From Candidatus Woesearchaeota archaeon (lineage in GTDB: Archaea > Nanobdellota > Nanobdellia > Woesearchaeales > GW2011-AR4), in assembly GCA_016180235.1 (NCBI GenBank), contig JACPBQ010000005.1:1-64000 (forward strand): a stretch of DNA of 64,000 bases, in the 5' to 3' direction. The notes beneath the pieces are model-generated. The model saw only the letters and a program-made list of their open reading frames with translations. It did no database searches and was not told the DNA's origin. Positions 17,650 through 36,570 of the stretch are shown here, piece after piece; position 1 is the first letter of the stretch, and the number at the start of each line of letters is the position of its first letter. The translations under genes were made by a program, and so were the position numbers.

Positions 17650-17880
17650 GATCATAAATAATAATTTTCAATATAGAAAAGTGTAGAAAGTGTCTATTAT
17701 ATAGTTTAAAATATATATTATAAAGATAGTTTATTTATAATTATTATTAAAAATATATAATTTATAATAATTTTTTTGATAGTTATATTAAAACATTTGA
17801 TTATTAATTATTGTTAGATTTTATTAAAAATATTAGTTAATAATTAAAATATCTTAGCAAAATTAATAAAAAATGACAAT
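17650..17880. other. extremely AT-rich intergenic block
   Basis: About 230 bp of nearly uninterrupted A/T, flanked by CTCACTTTT motifs. Confidence 0.6.
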
Positions 17881-20715: not shown

Positions 20716-20757
20716 TTATGTAATCTATAATTCTGGTTATGTAATCTATAATTCTGG
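20716..20757 (+). repeat. tandem direct repeat 2 x 21 bp (TTATGTAATCTATAATTCTGG)
   Basis: Two perfect adjacent copies. Confidence 0.9.
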
Positions 20758-20790
20758 TGTGAATTGCCATATAGAGGAATGCACATTATT

Positions 20791-20889: not shown

Positions 20890-21711
20890 ATGCTCCAAAA
20901 ACTCGCAACTGAACTTAAAATTCGTGGTTTTTCAGAGCAGACTATCAGTTCTTATACTTTTCACAATAGGAAATTTCTTGAATTCATAAAAAAAGAGCCG
21001 GAAAATATAGGAGCGGAAGATGTTAAAAGTTATATGGCCTACTTAATGTCGGAAAAGAGGCTAAATCCTTCTTCTGTAAGCCTGGCTATGAGCTCTTTGA
21101 AGTTTCTTTATACTGAGATGATGAGCAAAAGCCTTTTTGCAAATATAAAGATGCCAAAACTGGAGAAAAAGCTGCCTATTGTTCTTACAAAAAATGAAAT
21201 AAGGAAAATGATAGATGCAACGGATAATGAAAAGCACAAATTACTCATAAAGATGCTTTATTCTTCGGGCTTAAGAGTTTCTGAGTGCGTCAGTTTAAGG
21301 ATTGATGATCTTAATCTGGATGATAGATTTGGCACTGTAAGGGCAGGAAAAGGCAAAAAAGACAGGAATATGATACTTTCGGGGTCTTTGGCAGCAGATC
21401 TTAAGGATTACCTTGAGAAAACCGGGAAAAACAAGGAAAATGGCTATATTTTTGATGTTAAAGGCAGGGCTTTAAGCATTAGGCAGGCCCAAAAGGCCGT
21501 TACTAATGCAGCCAAGAAAGCAGGAATCAGGAAAAGAGTTTTCTGCCATGCATTAAGGAGCAGCTTTGCAACGCATCTGCTTGAGTCTGGGACGGATATA
21601 AGGGTTATTCAAGAGCTATTGGGGCATTCAAATTTATCAACTACGCAGCGCTATACTAAAGTTTCAAGGGAGCAATTAAGAAAAGTAAGAAGCCCCTTGG
21701 ATGATTTGTGA
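20890..21711 (+). CDS. xerA: tyrosine recombinase XerA
   Basis: SSGLRVSE, HALRSSFATHLLESGTDIRVIQELLGHSNLSTTQRYTK (R-H-R-H-Y). Confidence 0.93.
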   Translation: MLQKLATELKIRGFSEQTISSYTFHNRKFLEFIKKEPENIGAEDVKSYMAYLMSEKRLNPSSVSLAMSSLKFLYTEMMSKSLFANIKMPKLEKKLPIVLTKNEIRKMIDATDNEKHKLLIKMLYSSGLRVSECVSLRIDDLNLDDRFGTVRAGKGKKDRNMILSGSLAADLKDYLEKTGKNKENGYIFDVKGRALSIRQAQKAVTNAAKKAGIRKRVFCHALRSSFATHLLESGTDIRVIQELLGHSNLSTTQRYTKVSREQLRKVRSPLDDL

Positions 21712-22067: not shown

Positions 22068-22637
22068 TTAGTTGAAATTTACCAGCTCTTTCTGCGCTGT
22101 GTCTATCATGAGGATGTTTTCTTTGGCCTGCAGGCGCTTGAAGTCCGGATTCAGCTTTATGTAAGGCATGCTGTTCACGTATTTCTTTATTACCGGAATG
22201 CCTTTTTCCACCAAACGTGCTATATACTCGCTCACAACATAGCCCGGAAAACCTGTTTTGCGGCTTATATCAGTGTAGGAAACAAGGCCTTTCTCATCCT
22301 CCAGGGCATAAATTACCAGGAAAACATGCTGCTCTGTCTTTGTCAACGGCTTTATATCGAAACTCTTTCCTTCGACGATAAAATTGCTGTTAGACTGCAG
22401 GAAAAGCTCTATTCTTTCTATGCGCTCAGCAAGCTTTTCCATCTTGTCATTCAATCCATTCATGGACTCATAGCTGGCCTGTATCTCGCTTGTATTTTCG
22501 TTTATGGCCTCTAAATACCCATTTAACTCATTTTTAATGCCGTTTAAGTCGTCTTTAATGTCAATATCAATGCTTTTAGGCTTTCTTGAGAAGTAGCGTT
22601 TCCTCTCTCTAAAAAAATCGTCAAATATTTTTACCAC
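22068..22637 (-). CDS. coiled-coil + winged-HTH regulator
   Basis: Coiled coil then TKTEQHVFLVIYALEDEKGLVSYTDISRKTGFPGYVVSEYIARLVEKG. Confidence 0.65.
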   Translation of the reverse strand: MVKIFDDFFRERKRYFSRKPKSIDIDIKDDLNGIKNELNGYLEAINENTSEIQASYESMNGLNDKMEKLAERIERIELFLQSNSNFIVEGKSFDIKPLTKTEQHVFLVIYALEDEKGLVSYTDISRKTGFPGYVVSEYIARLVEKGIPVIKKYVNSMPYIKLNPDFKRLQAKENILMIDTAQKELVNFN

Positions 22638-22705: not shown

Positions 22706-23344
22706 TTAATGCGCTTTAACCTGCTTGTAAAGGTAGTATTTCTGCTTGCCTCTTTTTGCTGTGCCTATCTCTTCCATTTTCTCTATTTCATCCAATAAGC
22801 GGTAGAATGAGCTTTTTGAGCACAAGCCCTGGTCCTGCACTATCATTTCTTTTAGCTGTAGGCCACTAATCTGGCTGTATTTCCTTATATATGACAAAAT
22901 AAGGCTTTTTACATACTCTTTTGAGTTTTTAGATACTCTTTGTACCACTTTTTCCCTAATTGTAGCTTTTCTTTGTTCTTCTAAGCTGGAAAGGCGTTTT
23001 TCTATATCATAAACATCTTTTGGAGCTGTTAATGTTTTTGATTGGTCTTTTAAGTGTAAATTATCTATCTTTTCATTTAAAAGCCTGATTCTTTCTATTA
23101 TATTGTCAAAAGAATAGTAATTATCTATGATTTTTCTTATATCCTCGGGCCTTTTGGGGATGTATGAAATCTCTAATTCCAGCTGCTTTATTTTTTGCTG
23201 CTGCTGTTGGTTTTGCTGGTTCAGGTAATTAAGCCAGGAAAAAATTTTTTGGGTGTCCTGCTTTACGTTTGCGAAAGAAGCTGCTAAAATGCGGTTCATC
23301 TGGGTAAGCCTTCTTTCGGTTTCCTGACTCTTGATCCAGAACAT
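22706..23344 (-). CDS. coiled-coil + winged-HTH protein
   Basis: Coiled coil then LILSYIRKYSQISGLQLKEMIVQDQGLCSKSSFYRLLDEIEKM. Confidence 0.65.
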   Translation of the reverse strand: MFWIKSQETERRLTQMNRILAASFANVKQDTQKIFSWLNYLNQQNQQQQQKIKQLELEISYIPKRPEDIRKIIDNYYSFDNIIERIRLLNEKIDNLHLKDQSKTLTAPKDVYDIEKRLSSLEEQRKATIREKVVQRVSKNSKEYVKSLILSYIRKYSQISGLQLKEMIVQDQGLCSKSSFYRLLDEIEKMEEIGTAKRGKQKYYLYKQVKAH

Positions 23345-23387
23345 AATCTATAAAATATTACCTTTTTTATTTAAATATTTCGTTTTC

Positions 23388-23585
23388 TGGGAAAATACTG
23401 GGACTATATTGGGACTATTGTGGGACTTGAATGGGAATAGTTTTATAACGATAAATTTAAATATTTAGGGATTTAGATGGGAATTTATTGGGAATATAAT
23501 GGGACTATATTGGGAATGAGACTGAATTTTACCGACGACAAGCGATGGCGACGGGAAAAATAGTGGGAATGATATGGGAATAAAC
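23388..23585 (+). repeat. iteron-like array of 11-bp repeats, consensus TGGGAMTATAT
   Basis: Copies at 23388, 23399, 23410, 23421, 23432; (23467), 23478, 23489, 23500, 23511; 23564, 23575, 11-bp register within each cluster. Confidence 0.85.
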
Positions 23586-23895
23586 ACAGGAACCAGAAAA
23601 TAAAAAAAACCGATAAAAAACCAAAAGATTAATTCCAAAAATTTGATCAAAAAAGCAAGAATTAAAATGATGCAAAAATACCCCGAGGTAAGGAGGAAAA
23701 AAGTGGGATGCATAGTGATCATGGGTTGTATTAGGAGGGGCTATTTTGAGCCAGAATAGGCAAAAGTGAGGCCTGATAAGGGCTAAATAGTGCTAAAAAG
23801 GTGCATATAATGTCAAAAAGTGAGAGTTTAAAGAGAGCAAATTTGATTGAAAATAGCCAAGAAAGAGAGTGAATAGCGGGGATGTGAGGCTTAAA

Positions 23896-29910: not shown

Positions 29911-30180
29911 TTAAAGCTTTGTCCTTATGCCGTCAATGTGATCTGCTATTTCTGAGCCGGTCTTTGTCAATGTGAGCAGCTTTAACCTGCCTTGTTTTTC
30001 AAAATTTATAAGGCCAGACTTCTCCATTTCCTGCAGTATCTTCACAACATGAGAATAAGTGCAGTCAACTGTCTTTGCCAGTGAGGACGCGTAGATATCT
30101 GCTTTTGCGTTCTTTAGGTGAACGAGCATCATTGCTGGCTTCTCGCGAAAAAATACGTTGAAAATTTCCTTGTTATCCAT
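29911..30180 (-). CDS. MarR/ArsR-like winged-HTH protein
   Basis: SLAKTVDCTYSHVVKILQEMEKSGLINFEKQGRLKLLTLTKTG. Confidence 0.7.
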   Translation of the reverse strand: MDNKEIFNVFFREKPAMMLVHLKNAKADIYASSLAKTVDCTYSHVVKILQEMEKSGLINFEKQGRLKLLTLTKTGSEIADHIDGIRTKL

Positions 30181-32332: not shown

Positions 32333-32734
32333 ATGGTTATTTTGTTTGACCGGTTTAATCTGCCGGAGGATATTTACGAGATTATTTTCGCGACCAAGCA
32401 GCAGATTATTGTAGCGAAGCTGCTGATCGAGATGATCAAGACAAACGGAGGAGAGATAAACAAAACAGAGATGTCGTTGTTTGCAACCAAGCTGCATGAC
32501 GGCAACTTAATAACTGACCTGATTGAAGAAGAGCCTTACAAGGGAAAGAAGGTAAAAGTCTCCTATAACAAAAGGCAGTTTTATGACAGGATTTTAACGC
32601 CGATGAAGAGCATGGGGCTTATAGATTATGATCTTTACAAGAAAACTTACAAATTAACAGACCACTTCAACAAAGAGATGATAAGAATAGGATTAGTGTG
32701 GCTGAAGGAGATGAGAAAACCAGCAAGGAAATAA
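32333..32734 (+). CDS. hypothetical (possible winged-HTH) protein
   Basis: 133-aa ORF; promoter shares 16 bp with that of 18760..19254. Confidence 0.55.
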   Translation: MVILFDRFNLPEDIYEIIFATKQQIIVAKLLIEMIKTNGGEINKTEMSLFATKLHDGNLITDLIEEEPYKGKKVKVSYNKRQFYDRILTPMKSMGLIDYDLYKKTYKLTDHFNKEMIRIGLVWLKEMRKPARK

Positions 32735-33009: not shown

Positions 33010-36000
33010 ATGGAAGAGCAAAGCCAGCAGGTAGCTTTAGAGGAGAAAAAGGAAGGAAAGCTGGGGAAAGGCACAAAGATAAACAGGATTGTGATGAACG
33101 GCTTCAAGAGCTTTGCGAAGCATACGGAGTTCTTATTTAATGGCAGCTTTAATTGCGTTTTGGGCCCTAACGGCTCGGGAAAGAGCAATGTCCTGGATGC
33201 TTTATGCTTTGTCCTGGGAAAAAGCTCTGCAAAATCATTAAGAGCAGAGAAATCCTCTAACCTGATATATAATGGCGGGAAGGCGAAAAAGCCCGCTAAA
33301 AGCGGCGAAGTTTCGATTTTCTTCGATAATGCAAACAAGATATTCCCTACAGAAGAGGAAGAGGTCAAGATAACAAGGACAGTGAGGCAAAACGGGCAAA
33401 GCGTGTATAAAATCAACGATGAAGCAAGGACAAGGCAGGAAATCCTGGATTTGCTTGGAATAGCAAGGATAAATCCGGACGCTTACAACATAATCCTGCA
33501 AGGCGATATTATAAAGCTTGTGGAGATGCATCCAAACGAGAGAAGGGAGCTTATAGGCGAGATAGCGGGAATTTCACTTTATGAGGAAAAGAAGCACAAG
33601 GCAATTTTAGAGCTGGAAAAGGTCGATGAGAGGCTGAAGGAGACAGAGATTGTCCTGTCTGAAAGGAACACTTACCTTAAAGAGCTCAAGAAGGACAGGG
33701 ACCAGGCCCTAAAGTACAAGGACATGAACGACCAAATCAGGGTAAACAAGGCTTCCTACCTAAAGCTGCAGATTGCCAGGAAGGAAAAAGAAAGGAATGA
33801 GGTGCAGCAAAAGCTTGAGGAAGCGAATAAAGAACTGGAGAAAATAAATACCCGGGTAGAGGAGCTAAAAAATACCAATAGGGAAAAAAGAGAAGACATA
33901 GACAAGATAACCAAAGAGATAGAGGAAAAAGGGGAAGTGGGCCAAGTCAGCCTTAACAAGGAAGTTGAGACATTAAAGATAGAGCTCGCAAGGAAAAACT
34001 CAAGGACTGACGGCATCAAAAGCGAACTTGCAAAATTAGGGCAGAGAAGAAATGACCTTAAAGAAGGCATCAAGGAACTACAGGGCAAGATAAAGCAGAT
34101 TGAGGAAGAGAAAAAAGAGATGGTCAGGGAAATTGAAGAAAAAAAGAAAGAGAGGAACAGCATTGCCAACAGGATAAAAGAATTCAAAGAGAAAAACAAG
34201 CTGGATAATATAGGGGAGATAGAAAAACGGGTGGAAGAGATAGACAAAATGTCGGAGGTGCTGGAAAAAGAAGTCCACGAGGCAAGGGAAAGGCAGCACA
34301 CTTTGATAAGGGAAAAAGACAGGATAACGCACGAAGTAACAACCATAGATGCGCAGATGAGCAAAGTCCTTGATATAGAAAAAGAGCACAAAAAGCACCT
34401 GCAGGAGCTGGAAAGCAAGAGGAAAGAATTCAAGGAATCAACTTTAGAGCTGAACAAGAAGCTGGATGAGGATTCAAATTTTGCTGCCCAGCTTTCCACC
34501 GCAAGAAGAAAAGCAAACACCAAAGAGGAGGATCTTTCAAAGCTGAAGACCAGGCAGATTTCGGCAAGAGAGCTAAATTATGCTGATATTGCATTAAAAA
34601 GGATCTTAGATCTAAAAAACAAGAAGCCGGGAATTTACGGGACAGTATCAGAGCTGGGAAATGTTGATTCAAAATATGCCCTGGCCCTGGAGATTGCAGC
34701 AGGCCCGAAGATAAAAAGCATCGTTGTTGAGGATGACAGGACAGCTTCTGAATGCATCAAATACCTTAAAGATAACAAGCTTGGCGTTGTAACATTCCTT
34801 CCACTAAACAAATTAAGCTCAAAGCCCATAGATAATGAAACAAAAAGCCTGTCCAAATCGAACGGAAGCCATGGCCTGGCCCTTGACCTTGCAGGCTTTG
34901 ACGTCAAGTTCAAGAAAGTTTTTGAGTATGTTTTTGCAGATACTATAGTTGTGGACAATATAGATGTAGCCAGAAGATTGGGCATAGGCCATGCAAAATA
35001 CGTTACCCTGGATGGCGACCTAGCGGAAAAAAGCGGAGCGATGATCGGAGGCTATCGCCTGAAAAGGAAGCACAGCATGGGCTTCCAGGAAAAAGACATT
35101 GCAGAGGAGATTGAAAAGAACGGCAAAGAGCTTGATGAGCTAAAGAGCACCATTGAGCTGCTGGAGAAGAGAAGAACGGAGAATGAGGGGCTAATTGCAG
35201 GATTAAGAGTCAGGAAAGCAGCCCTTGAAGGGGAGATAATAAAGACCGAAAAATCGCTCCATCTTGATACTACCGACCTTGATGCTTCCAAGGGGAAGAG
35301 GGACACTCTGCAGAAATACGAGGATGAGGTTGACGGCAAAATAAAACTGGTCCAAGACAAGATCTCTTCCCTAAACAGGGAGCTTGCACTTGTAAAGACA
35401 GAGAAGCAGAAACTGAGAGCAAGCATAGCAGAATTAAGAAATCCTGCGCTGCTTGCAGAATTAAATGCCTTTGAGGAAAAGCACAAGCAGCTGAATGAGG
35501 AGCTTATAAAGATTGATTCTGAAATAAAGATAATGGACACGCAGTCGGAGAAAATCTACAAAAACGAGCTGGAGAAAACAGACAAAATACTCAAGCAGAT
35601 AGAAAAGGATGAGCACGAATTCAACAGGGAGATGCAGAATCTTATCAATGAAATCAAAAGCAAAGAGGATGAGCTGCAAAAGAAAGAGGCTTTAGTGCAG
35701 AATTTCTATGCAAAATTCAAAGAGCTGTTCCATAAAAGGTCTGAGATAGACAGGGATATACAGAAGAATGACAACCTCATCAGCAACAAGCAAAGCGAAA
35801 GCAGGAATGTCGAGATTAGGGCAAATACTTTATCCTTAAAGCATGCCGAGATGCAGGCTGCTCTTGCGGGACTTGAGCAGGAATTCTCCCAATATGAAGG
35901 CGTTAAGCTTGACCTGGAAAAGAACGAGGAGCAGCTAAAGGGCGAGATAAGCAAATTCGAGAGGATGAGAGAGCAGATAGGCAGCGTCAACATGAGGGCT

Positions 36001-36570
36001 CTGGAGATATATGAGGACGTGGAAAATGAGTACCGTATCCTGCTGGAAAAGAAAGAACGCCTCGGCAAGGAAAAGGAAGATGTGCTGAAGATGATGGAAG
36101 AGATAGAAGGGAAGAAAAAAGGCCTTTTCATGAGGATATTTGATGCCATAAATGCCAATTTCCAGAAATTTTTCACCATGCTCACGACAAAAGGGGCGCA
36201 AGCCACACTGGTGATAGAAGACGAGGAAAATCCTTTTGAGGCAGGAGTGAGGATCAATGTAAAGATTACAGGAAGCAAATTCCTGGATATAAGAAGCTTA
36301 AGCGGGGGAGAAAAGACAATGACAGCCCTTGCCTTCATATTTGCAATACAGGAGCACGAGCCGGCTTCTTTCTATGTTTTGGATGAGGTCGATGCGGCTT
36401 TGGACAAGCACAACAGCCAGAAGTTTGCCAAACTGATAAGGCAGTACTCCAATAATGCCCAATATGTAATAATAAGCCACAATGATGCTGTCATATCCGA
36501 GGCTGATACCCTGTACGGGGTTTCAATGAACGAGCACGGGATAAGCCAGGTTGTAAGCCTGAGGGTTTAG
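33010..36570 (+). CDS. smc: chromosome segregation protein SMC
   Basis: GPNGSGKSNVLDAL, hinge, LSGGEKTMTALAFIFAIQ, YVLDEVDAALD. Confidence 0.96.
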   Translation: MEEQSQQVALEEKKEGKLGKGTKINRIVMNGFKSFAKHTEFLFNGSFNCVLGPNGSGKSNVLDALCFVLGKSSAKSLRAEKSSNLIYNGGKAKKPAKSGEVSIFFDNANKIFPTEEEEVKITRTVRQNGQSVYKINDEARTRQEILDLLGIARINPDAYNIILQGDIIKLVEMHPNERRELIGEIAGISLYEEKKHKAILELEKVDERLKETEIVLSERNTYLKELKKDRDQALKYKDMNDQIRVNKASYLKLQIARKEKERNEVQQKLEEANKELEKINTRVEELKNTNREKREDIDKITKEIEEKGEVGQVSLNKEVETLKIELARKNSRTDGIKSELAKLGQRRNDLKEGIKELQGKIKQIEEEKKEMVREIEEKKKERNSIANRIKEFKEKNKLDNIGEIEKRVEEIDKMSEVLEKEVHEARERQHTLIREKDRITHEVTTIDAQMSKVLDIEKEHKKHLQELESKRKEFKESTLELNKKLDEDSNFAAQLSTARRKANTKEEDLSKLKTRQISARELNYADIALKRILDLKNKKPGIYGTVSELGNVDSKYALALEIAAGPKIKSIVVEDDRTASECIKYLKDNKLGVVTFLPLNKLSSKPIDNETKSLSKSNGSHGLALDLAGFDVKFKKVFEYVFADTIVVDNIDVARRLGIGHAKYVTLDGDLAEKSGAMIGGYRLKRKHSMGFQEKDIAEEIEKNGKELDELKSTIELLEKRRTENEGLIAGLRVRKAALEGEIIKTEKSLHLDTTDLDASKGKRDTLQKYEDEVDGKIKLVQDKISSLNRELALVKTEKQKLRASIAELRNPALLAELNAFEEKHKQLNEELIKIDSEIKIMDTQSEKIYKNELEKTDKILKQIEKDEHEFNREMQNLINEIKSKEDELQKKEALVQNFYAKFKELFHKRSEIDRDIQKNDNLISNKQSESRNVEIRANTLSLKHAEMQAALAGLEQEFSQYEGVKLDLEKNEEQLKGEISKFERMREQIGSVNMRALEIYEDVENEYRILLEKKERLGKEKEDVLKMMEEIEGKKKGLFMRIFDAINANFQKFFTMLTTKGAQATLVIEDEENPFEAGVRINVKITGSKFLDIRSLSGGEKTMTALAFIFAIQEHEPASFYVLDEVDAALDKHNSQKFAKLIRQYSNNAQYVIISHNDAVISEADTLYGVSMNEHGISQVVSLRV

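Follow-up and report, generated by a model that had tools for sequence, protein, structure and literature searches.

Between a gene for a coiled-coil, helix-turn-helix protein (HTH1) and a METTL5-like gene, a Candidatus Woesearchaeota archaeon carries clusters of a short TGGGA unit that recurs every 11 bp. What keeps this array where it is, and what might it do? We examined the locus in a window of 64,000 nucleotides (the whole stretch of DNA that was analyzed, positions 1 to 64,000 of contig JACPBQ010000005.1) and in related genomes. A sequence-only reading had described at least 11 TGGGA units with exact 11-bp spacing within three clusters, flanked by these two genes; the motif positions confirmed the units, and the neighboring genes are as described. 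On one strand of 23388-23585, TGGGA occurs 11 times, together with two one-base variants (AGGGA and CGGGA):

23388 to 23442, plus strand: repeat block 1, with five TGGGA at 23388, 23399, 23410, 23421 and 23432, in exact 11-bp steps.
23467 to 23521, plus strand: repeat block 2, with AGGGA at 23467, then TGGGA at 23478, 23489, 23500 and 23511, in exact 11-bp steps.
23552 to 23585, plus strand: repeat block 3, with CGGGA at 23552 and TGGGA at 23564 and 23575.

The consensus first proposed for the unit, TGGGAMTATAT, was too strict, as only two units match it exactly; across relatives the unit reads TGGGA[A/C]T[A/G]T. Tandem Repeats Finder detected the second cluster only, and we therefore counted units by motif. 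Rfam gave no match in the array/spacer region. Elsewhere in the window, imperfect AT-rich tandem repeats with a period of 27-42 bp occupy 17698-17846.

The array is neither a chance product nor one of many. In 300 first-order Markov simulations of the window, the maximum was 5 TGGGA and 2 exact 11-bp pairs. The array itself packs 11 TGGGA into 200 bp, with 8 pairs spaced by exactly 11 bp, so chance is excluded. All 8 TGGGA pairs with six bases between them (N6) in the whole 1.04-Mb genome fall at the array locus; the nine other TGGGA pairs in the genome are solely at 10- or 12-bp spacing. The array is also the densest TGGGA/TCCCA window in 1.0 Mb of one relative (G284; 11 versus 4 for the runner-up) and in 800 kb of another (G044; 14 versus 5). 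In the genomes searched, the array is a single locus per genome.

On one side, the array faces two genes on the minus strand and their predicted promoter:

22706 to 23344, minus strand: HTH1, 212 aa, with N-terminus MFWIKSQ, a long N-terminal helix, coiled coils and a C-terminal winged helix.
22068 to 22637, minus strand: HTH2, 189 aa, a coiled coil plus a MarR-like winged helix, adjoining HTH1.
23368 to 23382, minus strand: predicted BRE/TATA promoter for HTH1, which reads CGAAATATTTAAATA on the minus strand; the same element has the same place in relatives.

Read outward from the HTH1 start codon (23344), the order is TATA/BRE, block 1, block 2, block 3 and the METTL5-like gene (plus strand). 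The TATA element is ~29 nt from the start codon, a distance that would fit a leaderless HTH1 transcript. From the array to the METTL5-like gene, 23590-23868 is a ~280-bp purine-rich, non-coding stretch with no Rfam match.

This arrangement is the basis of the main rival to the account that we favor, namely that the array is an autoregulatory operator and nothing more: HTH1 on the phased units behind the BRE would activate or repress the HTH1-HTH2 promoter, with copy number giving a steep dose response. We regard this as possible but doubtful. The first unit usually lies 43-45 nt from the HTH1 start codon, as it does in 28 loci, directly behind the conserved BRE/TATA. Such a fixed distance and place behind the BRE would suit a transcriptional activator, which speaks against an anchoring role, and they have a precedent in EarA of Methanococcus, whose four 6-bp binding sites are found just ahead of the BRE (PMC5512572). 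The likeness is in having several short sites directly upstream of the BRE; EarA differs in that its four 6-bp sites lie at a target operon, while here about a dozen phased units are kept even off the promoter. An operator also does not readily account for the repeat blocks that extend to 200-330 nt from the HTH1 start in many loci, and a second target array was not found in the genomes searched.

We determined how widely the array is conserved. HTH1 was detected in 40 of 60 relatives. The triple pattern TGGGA-N6-TGGGA-N6-TGGGA was detected in 21 of the 60 and, in every case where both it and HTH1 were placed, shared the HTH1 locus; the reversed control of the pattern had no matches in these 60. 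Among 378 genomes of the class, 11 contain the triple pattern, and two of these (G258 and G407) lie outside the order. Overall, the array adjoins HTH1 orthologs in more than 50 genomes across the order Woesearchaeales, and the named relatives are nearly all Ca. Woesearchaeota or Nanoarchaeota assemblies. Absence of the array from the same HTH gene in relatives, the outcome that the sequence-only reading had named as counting against it, was not what we found: the array is present, even where it lies away from the promoter.

The spacing is conserved as well. Two or more exact 11-bp steps are present in 51 of the 72 loci with enough upstream sequence for this count, and spacings numbered 236 at 11, 40 at 22, 23 at 10, 16 at 12, 15 at 33 and 10 at 35. 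The mode of exactly 11 upholds the helical phasing that had been proposed. In some lineages (L252, L245, L247, L241 and L268, upstream of HTH1), the unit comes close to a palindrome, GGGACNGTCCC, and is found in either orientation, which looks as though a direct repeat became symmetric.

Two sets of apparent exceptions did not hold. Loss of the array in G001, G005, G015 and G017-G019 was rejected because HTH2 and the true methyltransferase ortholog are missing too; thus, the locus was probably not assembled, and these six genomes are uninformative. HTH1 without an array, in L274, L279 and L035, was also rejected, since the repeats lie on the other side of the gene.

The gaps between repeat blocks contain a second motif, the dyad TTTATCGWCGATAAA. 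The sequence-only reading had noted neither this dyad nor the part that HTH2 plays in the operon. Both copies in the window are decayed:

23441 to 23455, no strand assigned: dyad copy 1, TTTTATAACGATAAA, an 11/15 match between blocks 1 and 2 that runs into the TATA-like TTTAAATATTT.
23528 to 23542, no strand assigned: dyad copy 2, TTTACCGACGACAAG, a 12/15 match between blocks 2 and 3.

We counted 29 copies of the dyad core TCGWCGA across 24 loci, where 1.0 would be expected, and 27 of CGATAAA, where 2.4 would be. In L278, dyads at 112, 207 and 302 nt have repeat blocks in between. HTH2, the operon partner behind HTH1 on the same strand, may bind the dyads; this is a guess, made because HTH2 is present in every locus (the HTH1-HTH2 pair is kept in 73 of 73). 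Dyads are not confined to the array. In some genomes (L281-L300: G429, G423, G430 and G431), the form TTATCGWCGATAA is scattered well above chance, with 11 exact sites in G429 versus 1 control match. Of the sites read in four genomes, the majority lie between genes, and a distance of 25-60 nt to a following ORF start is frequent. Such a distribution would suit a regulon and dispersed anchor sites equally well.

Genomes in which HTH1 is absent or inverted allowed us to separate the array from its neighbors. In G055 and G054, HTH2 is present and HTH1 is not detectable. The ~100-bp interval between the methyltransferase and HTH2 in G055, which is the syntenic place, has no TGGGA array and no dyad, and neither was found around HTH2 in G054. 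In four other genomes (G171, G043, G044 and G274), the order HTH2-HTH1-repeats is kept with HTH1 inverted, so that the repeats are 3′ of HTH1. In G171, ~15 TGGGA with dyad cores follow HTH1, and in G044 all 7 matches of the palindromic unit fall within the densest site (800 kb read). The repeats are irregular in three of the four inverted loci. Since these four genomes do not group together on a weakly supported tree, two or three independent inversions of HTH1 are likely, though not proven.

Together, the absence of the array without HTH1 and the inverted loci reveal that the array goes with HTH1, in agreement with the link to the adjacent HTH protein suggested by the sequence-only reading. 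The inverted loci also reveal that the HTH1 promoter alone does not explain the array, and repeats downstream of HTH1, off its promoter, are the main evidence against autoregulation as the sole function. In most loci the array stays at the HTH1 promoter; the four genomes in which it does not weaken the operator role offered by the sequence-only reading, if that is taken as the sole function.

The same genomes bear on another assignment of the array: to the METTL5-like methyltransferase gene, divergent from HTH1, or to a non-coding transcript that starts in the spacer and is likewise divergent. The gene lies beyond the array in 53 of 73 loci, and the spacer has a ACGATAAATTTAAAT element, a possible promoter reading away from HTH1. 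The lack of an Rfam match in the spacer counts against such a transcript, and the methyltransferase does not adjoin the repeats in G043, G044 and G274. Regulation of the METTL5-like gene by the array is unlikely because the gene is not beside the array in these three of the four inverted loci. As G055 has a methyltransferase beside HTH2 without any array, G055 and the inverted loci together indicate that the methyltransferase does not explain the array, and we consider an assignment to this gene or transcript very improbable.

Another conserved neighbor, along with the METTL5-like gene, RpoL and HTH2, is a recombinase:

20890 to 21711, plus strand: tyrosine recombinase of the Xer/integrase family, linked in 46 of 73 loci and a candidate member of the system at most.

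The array could be the control site of this Xer-type recombinase, for chromosome dimer resolution or as an old integration locus. The gene is nearby in the 46 loci in both orientations and as divergent subfamilies. In 27 loci with HTH1, however, the flank (short in some cases) has no such gene, and no Xer-like core site was recognized in the array; a role of this kind is highly unlikely. Upstream of the recombinase gene, at a distance of ~130 bp (20716-20758), lies a perfect 21-bp tandem duplication (TTATGTAATCTATAATTCTGG x2) that may serve in recombination or regulation.

Could the array be a replication origin? In plasmid origins, iterons, AT-rich spacers and dyads lie next to the gene for a DNA-binding protein. 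The locus has the same plasmid-origin-like combination, and the sequence-only reading had suggested replication iterons; HTH1 or HTH2 would then act on them as initiator. Our results do not support this. In the two genomes with long contigs, 330-360 kb separate the only cdc6 gene from the array (495 kb for cdc6 versus 854 kb for the array in G284, and 765 kb versus 437 kb in G044); in G000, cdc6 is on another contig. The GC skew does not turn at the array in either genome: in G284 it is a featureless slope, and in G044 (800 of 1301 kb covered) it reaches its minimum near 700 kb, in the vicinity of cdc6. Neither the cdc6 linkage nor the skew turning point of an Orc1/Cdc6-type origin was thus found at the array. 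Relatives were also not found on plasmids or viral contigs; since HTH1 has no relative there, the bare repeat pattern seen in viral contigs (among the matches listed) was set aside. Because Cdc6 lies so far away, an origin is unlikely, and we give it little weight.

In the AlphaFold model of HTH1, the N terminus forms a long helix; there are further helices, and a winged helix is predicted with confidence at residues 141-206 (mean pLDDT 87.8). The full chain has a pTM of 0.40. Among relatives, the recognition segment CSKSSFYR(L/I)L is near-invariant, while the remainder falls to ~30% identity. The HTH2 model has a coiled coil (21-84) and a MarR-like winged helix. Neither protein matched a Pfam family above cut-off; searches of Pfam, NCBIfam and PHROGs with HTH1 gave coiled-coil noise only, and a PDB sequence search matched unrelated coiled coils. 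PDB fold matches of both proteins were general winged helices. AspA of pNOB8, which binds an archaeal centromere, was among them for both, more strongly for HTH2, and this match is general winged-helix similarity, one among hundreds. HTH1 and HTH2 are not claimed as paralogs, since hhalign gave 20% probability, over the coiled coil only.

The N terminus of HTH1 is unusual. Residues 2-6 contain at least one F or W plus two hydrophobics in 98% of 65 proteins, compared to 18% of 768 background ORFs. This start is usually followed by lysines, as in MFWKK, MVFFLKK and MWFFTKK (L208-L280). The conserved aromatic/basic composition suggests membrane insertion.

We compared the locus with known systems. 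R1 parC has ten direct repeats flanking the par promoter (Dam and Gerdes 1994, cited in PMC9426499 and PMC5016525). Type II parC/ParR of plasmid R1 shares with our locus 11-bp direct-repeat blocks around a promoter, beside the gene for the binding protein. ParR, however, is a ribbon-helix-helix protein that works with the actin-like ParM, whereas the HTH1 model and its PDB fold matches indicate a winged helix on a coiled coil rather than a ribbon-helix-helix fold. The HTH1 array is also chromosomal and vertically inherited, with an extra dyad motif and an operon without ParM. In the type III system, the winged-helix protein TubR binds direct repeats in two or three blocks upstream of its operon, which it represses (PMC5016525). 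A winged-helix protein and direct-repeat blocks upstream of its own operon recur here, and, as the HTH1 fold fits a winged helix and the array tracks HTH1, HTH1 may bind its repeats by analogy. The HTH1 operon lacks TubZ, TubR is small and without a long coiled coil, and tubC is on a plasmid rather than a chromosome. Thus, as in ParR/parC and TubR/tubC, tandem direct-repeat blocks lie in one locus beside the gene of the putative binder; no ParM or TubZ motor gene is present among the ORFs around HTH1/HTH2, and no filament-forming motor gene adjoins the array.

A second group comprises proteins that anchor DNA to the membrane or cell pole. RocS has a winged helix, a coiled coil and an amphipathic membrane helix, and RacA binds centromere-like repeats (PMC11500499). 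HTH1 shares the winged helix plus coiled coil with RocS, RacA and pSK1 Par. It differs in having the reverse domain order, with the membrane-like end N-terminal and the winged helix C-terminal, and its membrane contact would be a prediction from that end. No sequence relation of HTH1 to RocS, RacA or Par was found.

Archaeal systems offer a third comparison. AspA of pNOB8 is a winged-helix protein that spreads along DNA (PMC5120986), and SegB sites are scattered (PMC12284271), like the dyad in some woesearchaeal genomes. AspA and SegAB of Sulfolobus are also archaeal and site-specific, and they have target sites ahead of the genes that encode them. The sites recognized by AspA and SegB, in contrast, are palindromes rather than phased direct repeats, and their partners are ParB/ParA or SegA, which the HTH1 operon lacks. 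The ParA-type ATPase that ParABS and SegAB encode beside the DNA-binding protein is not found here: no such ATPase (AAA_31) lies beside the array in six genomes, three of which have one above the Pfam cut-off, the nearest ~9 kb from the array in G171.

Since HTH1 is not a ribbon-helix-helix protein and the motor gene is absent, the HTH1 array belongs to none of the parC, tubC or RocS/RacA/Par classes. In layout it comes closest to R1 parC and tubC, whose partition complex also controls the operon (PMC5016525, PMC9426499).

A model that we hold with moderate confidence is that the array is a cooperative HTH1(-HTH2) nucleoprotein site, centromere-like or membrane-anchoring, that also touches the operon promoter. 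The array would be the cognate cis-site of HTH1, whose C-terminal winged helices would occupy successive 11-bp units on one DNA face, with the molecules held to each other through their coiled coils. The dyads between blocks would be occupied by another protein, with HTH2 the likeliest candidate. The single nucleoprotein complex per chromosome could then position the chromosome, acting like a centromere or a membrane anchor and possibly holding or sorting it when the cell divides; the aromatic/basic N terminus of HTH1 would be a candidate contact to the membrane or to a partner. Lying behind the operon promoter, the complex probably also tunes its own expression, as the parC and tubC sites do.

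Several findings argue against the anchoring part of this model, in addition to the activator-like placement. The operon has no motor, and in three of six genomes no ParA-type ATPase exceeds the Pfam cut-off. Dyads are scattered, repeats are irregular in three of the four inverted loci and the tree behind the inversions is weakly supported. As a side observation, the window encodes, within 13 kb of the array, an SMC-like ATPase (33010-36570) and two small possible DNA-binding proteins (29911-30180 and 32333-32734); in the 20 relatives checked, no SMC gene was found near the array.

DPANN archaea are a very large group of tiny, mostly uncultured organisms, and in the open-access literature we found no paper on chromosome segregation in them. 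We tentatively propose that the locus may represent an undescribed chromosomal centromere-like system of Woesearchaeota, in which two coiled-coil winged-helix proteins on TGGGA repeats and TTTATCGWCGATAAA dyads would tether the chromosome, possibly to the membrane, from an operon without a ParA/ParM/TubZ motor. Were the role regulatory alone, the site would still be an unusual operator, with a dozen units in helical phase retained at one place in each genome; in either case, HTH1 defines a family without a Pfam entry. Loci in which array, promoter and genes are separated provide a natural comparison set, and the locus offers a concrete cis-site and two proteins that are conserved through much of one order.
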